Below the pieces are notes generated by a model that had not been told where the DNA came from, did not search any database, and worked only from the letters and a program-made list of their open reading frames with translations. Shown here piece after piece: positions 23,183 to 47,634 of a DNA stretch of 53,524 nt. Position 1 is the first letter of the stretch. Each line of letters begins with the position of its first letter. A program made the position numbers and the translations under genes. The DNA lies in contig JABGWU010000046.1 of the NCBI GenBank assembly GCA_018645475.1, positions 1 through 53,524 of the forward strand, read 5' to 3'. This DNA is from Opitutia bacterium (GTDB lineage Bacteria > Verrucomicrobiota > Verrucomicrobiia > Opitutales > Seribacteraceae).

Positions 23183-23971
23183 CTATTGAGCTCTTTCCAA
23201 CGACTTGCTCGACTGATTATAATAAACCTTCTGCGGAAGAGCCTGCACAATAAAATACATCCAAGAAGCATCCTCATTCCTAAACATGTGTGGGTAAATT
23301 TCGGGCCCCGTCCATAACCATTTCTGAGTTGGGCTCCATAACCATAACGAGGATGGAGCATTTGCAGCAGTGTATAACCAACCATGGTGTTGATGGTGAA
23401 TCCAATTATTTCCACCCTCAAAATAATTACCAAACCAACCTGATCTTTTCCAACCTGTTTGTGGAAGTTCGACAGAATCAGAAAGTACATTTTTTGAGAG
23501 ATCGGAAGAATCCGACGCCGGGTCAACTGTAGTGGCACCAACTTTTAAACGTAAAAAAAGAATTGCAGAAAAACCATCTAAATTTGCACTTATCGAAACG
23601 CGGGCATTTTGGGAAATTTTTTCGGCAGTAACAAAGCCGTCTTTAATCACCAACTGAGGACTCGGACTTGTCCAAATTACCTTCGATGGAGATAAGGCGG
23701 TTAATGTTCCATCATCCAGACTTAAAGATGCTTGCAATTTTGTAAATTCGCCGGACAAAAGAGAGTTAGAATTTGTCCTGGCATTTAATTTGATTGGAAC
23801 TGCAAAGTCAGCATAAGGACCAACTTGGTTAGTAACAGTACGGGATGAATCATTTGTGACACCATAAAAAGGAGCACCAAGCACTCCCTCGTGGCTCACT
23901 TTTGCGTGGAGTAACGGGGATAGTGCAATGAGCAAAATGGCTAAAGGGGTAAATATTCGATGTGTATTCAT
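23183..23971 (-). CDS. secreted hypothetical protein with C-terminal Trp-rich module
   Basis: Signal peptide 'MNTHRIFTPLAILLIALSPLLHA'; C-term 'SGWFGNYFEGGNNWIHHQHHGWLYTAANAPSSLWLWSPTQKWLWTGPEIYPHMFRNEDASWMYF', resembling the C-terminus of the 42253..47634 product. Confidence 0.75.
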   Translation of the reverse strand: MNTHRIFTPLAILLIALSPLLHAKVSHEGVLGAPFYGVTNDSSRTVTNQVGPYADFAVPIKLNARTNSNSLLSGEFTKLQASLSLDDGTLTALSPSKVIWTSPSPQLVIKDGFVTAEKISQNARVSISANLDGFSAILFLRLKVGATTVDPASDSSDLSKNVLSDSVELPQTGWKRSGWFGNYFEGGNNWIHHQHHGWLYTAANAPSSLWLWSPTQKWLWTGPEIYPHMFRNEDASWMYFIVQALPQKVYYNQSSKSLERAQ

Positions 23972-42252: not shown

Positions 42253-45200
42253 ATGGATCGAACCGATAGAACATCATATCCCGTTAATTCATTATGGGGT
42301 ATTAAAGTTCTATGTATTTGCTTATTCATTTTTTTACCGAACTTAGTAGTTCGTGCTAATGAACCGCAAGTTGTAATCCATTGGAGTTCTGAAACAGATT
42401 TAAATAGCCCCATTCTTCTCAAAGATCGAGATGGACAACTTCTGAACGCTGGAAATTCAAGCAACGGAGACGGACATCTGATTACTCTTGGATATTTTGA
42501 GGATGCAAATTCTACTGATCCATTTGGTGCAGATGGAACAAAATGGGTTCCCCTTACACCAGGGACAAGAATCGGAGATTCAAGTAGTGGTTATGGATAT
42601 GCCGATGGAACTTTTGGTTTTACAACTGTTTTTACAAACAACTCTAACACGGTTAGCGTTTATCCCAATGAACCGGCGAATTACAATGTTAATTCCCAAG
42701 TCACAATTTTAAACGACACCCCACCCGAAGATCATCCTATCTGCATTAGATTTTATGATCGAACTATCACCGGCCCGTCTGCAAGATATAACACCGTAAC
42801 AGGACCAGAATGGAAGTGGCCAGGATTTAAGCCTGGTGTGCCTAAAAATATTTACCTCAAAATAAGTGATGAGATTGCGAGTGGATCGAATCAGTTCAAG
42901 TGGGAATACGGAAGTAATTTTGAAGATCCTGATAACAACTTTTCGACCTCGCTTCAAGTTAAGGCAAACTTAATTGCATCTGCCACAGGCGGGGGCTATC
43001 TCAACCCCAATCCTACAGGACCATACACTTACGACACTGAAGTAACTTTAAATGCAGTTCCTGATAATACTCACAGAGAATTTGTACAATGGATTGGAGC
43101 AGGCGTAGTTGACCCTTCCTCCGCAAATACTAAAGTGCTCATGTCACAGGATCGAAATGTCACCGCTTACTTTAGAGTTAAAAGCTACAATGTAACGATT
43201 ACAAATATCGGAAAAGGAACGGTTTCCGGTTCAGGAGTTTATCTTTATGGAAGCGATGCCAATATTTCTGCGACAGCTGCCCCCGGGTATCAGTTTAGTC
43301 ATTGGCTTAATTATGATTCCTTTAGCAATCTATTAACTACCGGACTAGATAACAATCTTTCCTCCTCCACAACTCTGACTGTGCAAGGAGGACATGCCTT
43401 GGTTGCGGTTTTTGATCCTCTACCTTACAACATTACACTGAATTCAACGACCGGAGGAAATGCTACCATTGTTCAAGCACCAGGTCCTTTTTACTTTGAC
43501 AGTAATTATACTTTATCATCCTCACCTGAATATGGCTACAGCTTTGATTCATGGACAAGTTCAACAAACTCTTTAAGTTTACTCTCCTCAACTACCTCAA
43601 CTACCGCAATATTTACATTAAACGGGGATGTCTCTTTCACTGGTAATTTTTCTGAGAATCAATATTTGCTGACTGTTCTGAGAGGTGAAGGAGGGGCATC
43701 CGTTTCTCCCTCAACCCCTGCATTGTATAATCACTCTTCACAGGTTTCTATTACAGCCACTCCCCTCGAAGGTTACGAATTTGACAAATGGGAAGATGTA
43801 AATGGTTCGTTATTAAATTTCACAGATCAAAACAGCACCGTCGACATGTCAGAAAATGCTGCCAATGTAACTGTCACTGCATTGTTTAAACCAAAACAAT
43901 ATACTGTCTCATTAACTGCTAATAATGGTGGGCAAGTTTCTATCTCCCCTGCATCTGGACCATGGGAACACTTTAAAGTTTATCCCCTTGTTGCAACACC
44001 GGACCCGGGTTATCAATTTACCAACTGGACAGGAGATGCGAATTCCTTGATTGCACTAACCAATGGTAGTTCCGACGCTAACAATAGCTTAGCCATTATT
44101 AGCCCCGTGTCCTTGAGTGCTAATTTTAGTTTAGTAGACTATAATGTCACAGTATCAGTTGCTTCAGGAAGTGGCTCGGTTTCAGGCGGAGGGACATACG
44201 ATATCACTGACAATCCTCAAATCAACGCAATCGCAAACTCAGGTTGGCATTTTTCTCAATGGAGCGGCGATGTATTTTCACTTAATTCCAACTCTTCCCT
44301 TTCCTCAACTGTAAACCTTTCTCAATACCCTCAAAACATTTCCCTTCAAGCAAGTTTTGCAAGAAATAGTTACGCCATTAATGTAAATGTTGACGGTCAA
44401 GGGTTGATCAATAATCAATCCAGTTTAAATTTGAGTCCGGTTTTTGAAGACTTAATTGAACTTAACGCAACCGCCTCAACTGGATGGGAATTCAATCGTT
44501 GGTATGGATATCCATTTTCAAACCCTCAGTCTAAAAATGTTTCTTTTTCCGCCAATAGCAATCTAGATTTGAACGCATCTTTTCAAAGAAAACAATTCAC
44601 CTTGACCATCGGAACCTCTCCCTTTGGAGAATCAAATGGAAGCGGTACTTATGCCTATGAAGCAAACGCATCTATTTCCACAATTCCAAAAACAGGATAC
44701 TTATTTTCCGGTTGGACTGGAGACACTCAATTTATTGCCAATACTAATTCCAGTTCGACTTTCGTTACTATTCCTAACAATTCAGTTTCAATAATTCCAT
44801 CTTTTACTCCAAAGACTTACCAGATTACATTAAATTCGGACAATAATGGAACAGCTACCGGCGGTGGAAATTATTCATATGGAACCACTGCAAATATTGT
44901 TGCGACTGGAAATGGGGCTAACCTTAATGCACTTGCAGGATACGCTTTGGCCAGTTGGACGATTACCAACCAGTCTGGACAAGTTTCCCAAAGTTCAAGT
45001 AATCCACTATCCCTTAATGTTGATGGGAATTATTCGATATTTGCTAATTTTGAACCCGTAGAAGTTCAATTGCACGATCTAAATATTTCTATTTCACCCC
45101 AGAATGGTGGCCAATTTTTCAATGATCCAAGTCTGAGAGACTGGAATAATAGTAATACAACTTTAACTTCAGTCATTACTGCGACTCCTAATCCAGGTTA

Positions 45201-47634
45201 TTCATTCCTTGGTTGGGAAAATCCAGATAGTAAAACGATTTCTCCGAATTTCAAAAGCCCGAATATAACTTTTACAACTGATTCAAACGCTTCGCTGGTT
45301 GCCAAATTTGCAAAAAATATTGTCAGTTCAATTACTCGTATTAACGGGAATGGTTCCACACAAACCGATTCAAACGAAACTTCATTTTCACTTAATGCAA
45401 TTCCGGATCAGAACAACTATTTTACGGGATGGGCGGTAGATCATAACTTCTCCTATGATGTCGCAATTGGAAACTCTTCAGTAAAAAACACCTCTCAAGT
45501 TTTCTTCCTGAATGGTAAAGAAAGTCCAAGCTTAAAATTGATAAAAGGCTACACCTACCACTTTAATTGCACCATATCTACCCATGAATTTTATTTATCA
45601 ACTGAAAACAACTCCACAAACTTCGACCACGAATACACTCATGCCAACCTTTCAGGTTCACGAACTTCAAACGGAACACTCATTTTCACGGTTCCAAGTG
45701 ACTACGATTCTAATATAAATCTTTATTATTGCTCGGCAGATGATCCTTTTATGGGAAACAAAATTGAAATTATTGACGCAATTACTGATGAACAGATTTT
45801 ACCATTCCCAACGCAAACTAGTATTAATCCAAGTGTTGACCACGATATTTCTTTATTGGCAAATTTCAACTTAAACCAATACGCGGTATCAATTACAGCT
45901 GGCATTGGTGGTGCGATCAGTAATGGAACAAGTGGTACATACTCTCATGGTTCAACTATTAATTTAACTGCGAACCCGAACCAACATTTTGCTTTCAGCC
46001 ATTGGGAAGGAACTACATTTTCATCTATATCAACTATCTCAACAATAGCTACAATTTCTAGTGCCTCTCATATAAATGCCGTTTTCGTTCCCATCCTGTA
46101 TGACTTAACCCTTTCAAAAAATATAGCTGAAGCTGGAAATGTTTTTAGCATATCCAATACTTATAAATTTGAAAATGGTACCGCTGTTGATATCCAAGCA
46201 AACCCAAATCCTGGTTACATTTTCAGTTCATGGAGCAATGGGGACACATCACCTACAACTTCCATTACAATGGACAGAAATACATCTATCTCCGCTACTT
46301 TCAATAGAAAACCTGCATCAGTCCAGCATTCTGTATTAACCTTAGATATTTTTGACAATCCTGAATTAAATACGGTTGGTGGTTTTATAAACCCTGGTAG
46401 TTTTTCCGGTTTAAAAGTCGGTGAGTCTATTCAAATTTCCGCTAATGATTATCCGGGATATCAATTTCTAAATTGGGTTGAAGATAATAATCAAACGGAC
46501 GATGCCAGAACAAAAACTCTTATTTTAGACGAGAACCAGACGATTACTGCTGTATTTAAAAGATTAAGTTATGAAGTAAACCTAATTTCAACTCCTCTTG
46601 GTGGTGGAAAAATATTGTCAAATCCAGGTTCTACCTCTCCAGTGCAAAAACTTACTTTCCCACATGGAGAAAATGTAAGAATTACTGCTATTCCTAACGA
46701 TAATTATCAATTCGCACAATGGTCAGGCAATGGGTTAGATGGACTCAATACCACTTCTACAGAAATTCAGCTTACGGTGAATCAAAATATTAATGTAAAT
46801 GCTAAATTCATTCCATTACAACCACTTGAACTAAGGATCACCATTGAACCCGTCGATTCAGGATTTGTAATTGGGAATGGATCTTTCATCTACAATCCCA
46901 CTCATCCAATATATGCCACACCAAACACAGGTTACCTTTTTGACAAATGGGAAGGAGTTGGAATTGAAAATGCATACCTCCCCAACTCATCGATAGTGCT
47001 CAATGAGGATAAAACTATTAAAGCAAAATTTAAAATTGATCCCGATTATATTGGCACAGGAAACCCCACTACCCCAGGTCTCCACGCCTTAACTATTATT
47101 GCTATTCCTTCAGTTTCGGGAACTGCTATTGGATCCGGGACATTTGGTACAGGTTGGACTGACATTAAGGCAATTAGTTCTATTGGATATAAATTCTCTT
47201 ATTGGGAGGGTAACGGAGTTGAAGATAATTCGTCTAGCCAAACTAGATTTTTCCTAACCTCGAACACCACACTACAGGCAGTATTTTTACCTCTTAAAGG
47301 AAACGATTTAATTTCAAACGCAACACCGTTGGGTAACTCTTGGTGGTATAGCGATTGGTTCGGACCATTTTGGCACCGGGAAAGTGACCTATGGATATAT
47401 CACGCCCCACTAGGTTGGGTATATTTAATTCCAGAAAATAGCACTAGCAGTTTATGGTTTTGGGTTGATTATTTATCAGGGTGGCAGTGGACATCATCAA
47501 GTGTATTTCCATACATAAGAGGACATTCCCAGGCGAAATGGTTTTGGTTCAATATGGAAAAATCAACATACACTAATCGAATATTCTTCGAGTATGATGA
47601 TGCGATCGGAAATGGAAACTGGATACAATACTAA
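42253..47634 (+). CDS. giant secreted InlB/'bacterial repeat' protein (1793 aa) with embedded cupredoxin-like domain and C-terminal Trp-rich module
   Basis: Signal-like 'GIKVLCICLFIFLPNLVVRA'; about 17 repeats of type 'xYxVTIxxxGxGxVSGxGxYxYGxxxxIxAxxxxGYxFxxWxGx...xxVxAxFxxx'; C-terminal 'WWYSDWFGPFWHRESDLWIYHAPLGWVYLIPENSTSSLWFWVDYLSGWQWTSS'. Confidence 0.9.
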   Translation: MDRTDRTSYPVNSLWGIKVLCICLFIFLPNLVVRANEPQVVIHWSSETDLNSPILLKDRDGQLLNAGNSSNGDGHLITLGYFEDANSTDPFGADGTKWVPLTPGTRIGDSSSGYGYADGTFGFTTVFTNNSNTVSVYPNEPANYNVNSQVTILNDTPPEDHPICIRFYDRTITGPSARYNTVTGPEWKWPGFKPGVPKNIYLKISDEIASGSNQFKWEYGSNFEDPDNNFSTSLQVKANLIASATGGGYLNPNPTGPYTYDTEVTLNAVPDNTHREFVQWIGAGVVDPSSANTKVLMSQDRNVTAYFRVKSYNVTITNIGKGTVSGSGVYLYGSDANISATAAPGYQFSHWLNYDSFSNLLTTGLDNNLSSSTTLTVQGGHALVAVFDPLPYNITLNSTTGGNATIVQAPGPFYFDSNYTLSSSPEYGYSFDSWTSSTNSLSLLSSTTSTTAIFTLNGDVSFTGNFSENQYLLTVLRGEGGASVSPSTPALYNHSSQVSITATPLEGYEFDKWEDVNGSLLNFTDQNSTVDMSENAANVTVTALFKPKQYTVSLTANNGGQVSISPASGPWEHFKVYPLVATPDPGYQFTNWTGDANSLIALTNGSSDANNSLAIISPVSLSANFSLVDYNVTVSVASGSGSVSGGGTYDITDNPQINAIANSGWHFSQWSGDVFSLNSNSSLSSTVNLSQYPQNISLQASFARNSYAINVNVDGQGLINNQSSLNLSPVFEDLIELNATASTGWEFNRWYGYPFSNPQSKNVSFSANSNLDLNASFQRKQFTLTIGTSPFGESNGSGTYAYEANASISTIPKTGYLFSGWTGDTQFIANTNSSSTFVTIPNNSVSIIPSFTPKTYQITLNSDNNGTATGGGNYSYGTTANIVATGNGANLNALAGYALASWTITNQSGQVSQSSSNPLSLNVDGNYSIFANFEPVEVQLHDLNISISPQNGGQFFNDPSLRDWNNSNTTLTSVITATPNPGYSFLGWENPDSKTISPNFKSPNITFTTDSNASLVAKFAKNIVSSITRINGNGSTQTDSNETSFSLNAIPDQNNYFTGWAVDHNFSYDVAIGNSSVKNTSQVFFLNGKESPSLKLIKGYTYHFNCTISTHEFYLSTENNSTNFDHEYTHANLSGSRTSNGTLIFTVPSDYDSNINLYYCSADDPFMGNKIEIIDAITDEQILPFPTQTSINPSVDHDISLLANFNLNQYAVSITAGIGGAISNGTSGTYSHGSTINLTANPNQHFAFSHWEGTTFSSISTISTIATISSASHINAVFVPILYDLTLSKNIAEAGNVFSISNTYKFENGTAVDIQANPNPGYIFSSWSNGDTSPTTSITMDRNTSISATFNRKPASVQHSVLTLDIFDNPELNTVGGFINPGSFSGLKVGESIQISANDYPGYQFLNWVEDNNQTDDARTKTLILDENQTITAVFKRLSYEVNLISTPLGGGKILSNPGSTSPVQKLTFPHGENVRITAIPNDNYQFAQWSGNGLDGLNTTSTEIQLTVNQNINVNAKFIPLQPLELRITIEPVDSGFVIGNGSFIYNPTHPIYATPNTGYLFDKWEGVGIENAYLPNSSIVLNEDKTIKAKFKIDPDYIGTGNPTTPGLHALTIIAIPSVSGTAIGSGTFGTGWTDIKAISSIGYKFSYWEGNGVEDNSSSQTRFFLTSNTTLQAVFLPLKGNDLISNATPLGNSWWYSDWFGPFWHRESDLWIYHAPLGWVYLIPENSTSSLWFWVDYLSGWQWTSSSVFPYIRGHSQAKWFWFNMEKSTYTNRIFFEYDDAIGNGNWIQY
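42970..47300 (+). repeat. tandem about 70-90-aa InlB-type repeats, roughly 17 diverged copies (protein-level repeat)
   Basis: Copies aligned by eye, e.g. 'SYNVTITNIGKGTVSGSGVYLYGSDANISATAAPGYQFSHW', 'DYNVTVSVASGSGSVSGGGTYDITDNPQINAIANSGWHFSQWSGD', 'QFTLTIGTSPFGESNGSGTYAYEANASISTIPKTGYLFSGWTGD'. Confidence 0.85.

Follow-up and report, generated by a model that had tools for sequence, protein, structure and literature searches.

A tryptophan-rich C-terminal module of exported proteins in marine Opitutales and some Deltaproteobacteria, with a possible docking role

PEP-CTERM segments combine a short motif, a transmembrane helix and a basic tail. The C-terminal sorting domain (CTD) of the T9SS in Bacteroidota is an Ig-like seven-stranded beta-sandwich (PMC4804311); choline-binding or cell-wall-binding repeats (CW_binding_1) are tandem aromatic-rich beta-hairpins of ~20 residues carried by surface enzymes (PMC4471590), and MORN repeats are tandem short beta-hairpins rich in aromatics (PMC7725318). 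Beside these we place a tryptophan-rich module of ~90 residues, seen at the ends of two exported proteins in the window (the whole 53,524-nucleotide stretch of Opitutia DNA analysed here), which is almost certainly a real and abundant, previously undescribed domain family of exported proteins. We read it, at a probability of about one half, as a non-catalytic docking domain that retains its exported hosts at the envelope, probably through aromatic residues that bind glycans.

The first window host, of 1793 aa (42253..47634, + strand), has a signal peptide, then ~16 divergent InlB B-repeats (a Pfam search matched Flg_new_2 in 16 stretches, E = 1.6e-157), then the module at its C-terminus (47335..47634, + strand; profile E = 1.1e-19). 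The second, of 262 aa (23183..23971, – strand), consists of a signal peptide, an all-beta N-domain (from a weak AlphaFold2 model) and a C-terminal module (23183..23461, – strand; profile E = 6.0e-28); the sole Pfam match in its short body, aBig_2, was sub-threshold, and orthologues occur in four other genomes (G017, G026, G031 and G032). Both N-termini are hydrophobic. The two ORFs and their tails lie where the initial annotation had placed them, and we consider the tails homologous because BLASTP aligned aa 1697-1769 of the first protein with aa 174-243 of the second (73 positions, 33% identity, E = 5e-9); coincidence within a single pair was rejected on this score together with the further copies in the same genome. 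The string that the annotation had given as shared was thus rightly taken for homologous and wrongly delimited: the real tail is longer, ~90 aa, ending 9 aa before the stop in the 47-kb protein and 2 aa before it in the 23-kb protein.

The annotation had also proposed an HMM count across the genome. In the window's own genome (375 contigs, 83% complete) a single-sequence search gave 24 places at E ≤ 1, and a profile built from 21 of its copies (alignment A2) gave 25 copies at E ≤ 1e-7, both window copies included. No Pfam or NCBIfam domain covers the tail of either window protein, no Pfam, NCBIfam or PDB sequence family covers the module (21 members, Pfam and NCBIfam at E ≤ 1), and a literature search found no description of it; an existing Pfam domain with an unrelated role, against which the annotation had warned, was found in neither Pfam nor NCBIfam. 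The module was present in all 26 other genomes of the genus and all 10 of the family that were searched, at 3-37 copies each. In Opitutales beyond this family the distribution is patchy (0 to 52 copies): four families (f2, f3, f18 and f21) carry the module, with the highest count of the order, 52, in genome G056, and most other sampled families had zero copies. Across a phylum sample only 10 of the 388 genomes, the window's own included, were positive, copy counts there being lower bounds since 13 candidates were scored per genome.

A degenerate DNA pattern for W-I-[YF]-H-x-x-L-G-W-x-Y was run on the GTDB collection; among the matches listed were mainly marine Opitutales/Verrucomicrobia MAGs and single-cell genomes, along with MAGs of a distant phylum (Deltaproteobacteria and Syntrophobacteraceae), several of whose matches lie on long contigs. 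Some of the latter MAGs hold 2-16 module copies (5-16 each in four genomes), and 6 of the 39 genomes of the Deltaproteobacterial carriers' order have the module. In a tree of 174 modules, which rests on 89 columns and is poorly resolved, all 19 Deltaproteobacterial copies fell on one side of a branch (support 92) despite their unrelated hosts, and in a smaller tree the split between Deltaproteobacterial and other copies needed two changes; the grouping of module copies thus reflects lineage more than the protein that carries them.

Some isolated matches fell elsewhere. A lone 108-aa module-only ORF lies on a 7.5-kb contig of an Akkermansiaceae MAG whose genome shows no other copy, which may reflect contamination or transfer. 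A Spirochaete match (E about 0.001) was dismissed as chance. On four viral contigs module matches were absent or weak: two of these, from IMG/VR, have weak partial matches within an 1101-aa ORF, and the edge of one (L216) carries a module-like end (E = 2e-5) whose origin is viral or mis-binned bacterial.

The module hosts are exported proteins with unrelated bodies whose domains are of extracellular types, and export is the sole trait that they have in common. In the window's own genome they include DUF285 repeats, cadherin, TSP3 repeats, InlB repeats, LRRs, PKD with cohesin, trypsin, subtilase, FGE-sulfatase, RCC1 and PQQ propellers, LamG and lectin-C; 76 further hosts resemble this set and add M23 peptidase, endonuclease I and thioredoxin-like domains, and among the Deltaproteobacterial hosts are a papain-type protease and a phosphoesterase. 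By a crude, home-made rule, signal peptides were recognized in 62 of the 77 complete hosts and in 143 of 370 neighbouring genes. Such near-universal placement on exported proteins that lack a common body suggests that the module acts on location rather than catalysis. One way of doing so would be dockerin-like, as a protein-protein docking module that brings exported proteins together on a common scaffold: the module is modular, C-terminal and present in many copies per genome, and a cohesin domain occurs in one own-genome host and in two hosts of the wider census. We consider this improbable, as no scaffold carrying repeats of a partner domain turned up, and dockerins are calcium-binding helical domains whereas the module is predicted to be all-beta.

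Placement within the chain is strongly biased. In the own genome 22 of the 25 copies leave no more than 13 aa before the stop, and across 118 other hosts with a visible stop the module lies ≤30 aa from it in 93 (79%), 31-90 aa away in 15 (13%) and internally in 10 (8%). A strictly terminal location, as the annotation had described it for both exported proteins, holds for the two window copies and is not an absolute rule of the family; nor are the copies mostly internal or cytoplasmic, the outcome that would have spoken against the annotation, given exported hosts and only the 10 internal cases. Internal placement is seen repeatedly among YHYH proteins, and also within one InlB-type family. At six YHYH loci the module stands mid-protein and is followed by the YHYH domain, with conserved placement and exported hosts. 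Two full modules occur in one protein (L121). Two host families (seen at three and five loci) have extensions past the module, of 43 aa and 62 aa, conserved and each alike between genomes. The internal and double copies are therefore those of a domain rather than of a strictly terminal signal, and they argue against an obligatory cleaved C-terminal signal.

Among 175 distinct copies, W4, W9, G11, W20, H23, G27, W28, Y30, W40, W48, W50 and W67 (profile numbering) are at least 90% conserved (90-99%), and aromatics stand at i, i+2 along almost every strand. AlphaFold2, run on A2, modelled 47326-47631 (102 residues) as ten strands forming five consecutive beta-hairpins (pLDDT 91.3, pTM 0.77; pLDDT 75.6 to 91.3 over the five models). 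On the + strand, predicted hairpin 1 occupies 47341..47376 (strands 6-9 and 13-17 of the model), hairpin 2 47392..47430 (W-I-Y-H...L-G-W-V-Y; strands 23-26 and 30-35), hairpin 3 47449..47496 (L-W-F-W...G-W-Q-W-T; strands 42-47 and 52-57), hairpin 4 47512..47550 (strands 63-66 and 71-75) and hairpin 5, which reaches the C-terminus, 47581..47628 (strands 86-91 and 96-101). Hairpins 2 and 3 form an internal repeat at an offset of 20 columns (20 residues), scoring 29.7 against shuffled maxima with a mean of 11.8 and a top of 23.9 (300 shuffles). The full 262-aa host, modelled from five sequences, gave a weak result (pLDDT 45, module residues ~30-40) in which the hairpin strands nonetheless fell at the same places. 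Foldseek of the module model, against the PDB and against a viral library, returned nothing at E ≤ 0.001 (best PDB match E = 1.6, TM 0.31), which for a predicted all-beta model of 102 residues is a modest sign of a new fold.

Some proteins have only the last three hairpins. At L232:6760-8108 and L249:3130-13038, adjoining small exported genes encode a signal peptide, a coiled coil and these three hairpins; the own genome has two such genes, and another (G016) has several in a cluster. Proteins so reduced suggest that the hairpins are modular. A compact predicted fold at chain ends could also serve as a C-terminal cap that helps folding or resists proteases and binds no specific ligand; this we think very improbable, since the module sits on unrelated folds (proteases, propellers, coiled coils, Ig domains), also occurs internally and paired, and is missing from most sister families, whose need for caps would be equal.

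In the docking reading that we prefer, a Sec-exported protein of any architecture would leave the cell with the module, nearly always C-terminal; aromatic side chains at alternating strand positions would bind a repetitive ligand on the cell's own envelope or exopolysaccharide, and the bound module would hold whatever it is joined to, be it enzyme, adhesin or propeller, at the surface. We infer all three of its elements, namely aromatics as a binding face, a glycan as ligand and retention at the surface, and the conserved Trp residues could equally be core rather than exposed. Docking to envelope or exopolysaccharide is preferred because wall-binding repeats such as choline-binding modules are likewise built of repeated aromatic hairpins (PMC4471590); the internal copies and the two-module protein, moreover, are easier to reconcile with a binding domain than with a terminal signal that is cleaved off. 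These same proteins narrow the roles that the annotation had listed (anchoring, sorting or carbohydrate binding), each of which may still fit the sequence.

The main and serious rival, which we hold unlikely, is a C-terminal sorting domain recognized by a dedicated, as yet undescribed outer-membrane export or attachment machine, as the T9SS CTD is in Bacteroidota. The location of 79% of modules within 30 aa of the stop and their clustering by lineage, not by host, would be expected of a sorting tag too, and tens of cargos per genome with unrelated bodies and the patchy taxonomic distribution point the same way; C-terminal placement of the T9SS type on exported proteins applies to most hosts (93 of 118). 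The internal and double copies weigh against it, as do several searches. Curated T9SS, PEP-CTERM and other sorting models matched none of the 21 members (NCBIfam, E ≤ 1), and between Verrucomicrobial and Deltaproteobacterial loci no neighbour gene was conserved beyond common families such as FGE-type genes. Membership of the T9SS sorting domains was rejected for want of a model match and because the fold differs; SprA (PF14349) was found in 0 of 22 genomes by a search lacking a positive control, so that absence of a T9SS is not proven. A reading in which an unknown sorting or surface-attachment system of T9SS scale, at work in Opitutales and some Deltaproteobacteria, recognizes its cargo by the module seems to us unlikely.

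The initial annotation's separation of the module from PEP-CTERM was borne out by the negative model search and by the distribution of exosortases. Membership was rejected on three counts: no NCBIfam match, no hydrophobic helix in the aligned tails, and no tracking of the module by exosortase, which was present in 13 of 13 module-positive and in 7 of 9 module-negative genomes compared. This lack of tracking also counts against the sorting-domain rival. An exosortase gene adjoins a module protein in 2 of 26 cases from the 13 positive genomes, which is weak evidence, and exosortase as a partner of the module was rejected on that count. The two cases come from distant genomes: in G031 (L235:4776-7298) the exosortase gene lies upstream of the orthologue of the 23-kb protein, and in G056 (L236:5359-7862) it overlaps a module-bearing peptidyl-prolyl isomerase-like gene by 4 bases.

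For docking domain and sorting tag alike, the module brings under a single name and model the ends of many exported proteins, tens per genome, that pass as 'hypothetical' in uncultured marine Opitutales and some Deltaproteobacteria. Its binding target or reader would govern which proteins stay on cells, and since 5-50 proteins per genome bear the tag, a localisation mechanism common to them can be tested directly.

Among described systems, the module resembles PEP-CTERM in its C-terminal location on many unrelated exported hosts and in the presence of exosortases in the same organisms, and differs from that tag in being folded, ~90 aa long and without a hydrophobic helix. With the T9SS CTD it shares size (~80-100 aa), C-terminal location, all-beta character and attachment to tens of Sec-exported proteins with unrelated bodies (PMC4804311), whereas five hairpins (ten strands) are predicted in place of the sandwich, and internal and double copies occur. 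MORN repeats have another consensus, and the module is exported and C-terminal; a MORN Pfam match appeared in 1 of the 21 members and was non-significant (E = 0.095). The repeated ~20-residue aromatic hairpins recall choline-binding repeats, a resemblance of kind and not of homology: no CW_binding or choline-binding Pfam model matched the 21 members at E ≤ 1, and the module has another consensus, a fixed number of about five hairpins and a home in Gram-negative lineages. A lineage-favoured C-terminal module is thus of a known kind, while its sequence, predicted fold and taxonomic home are apparently new among the libraries searched.
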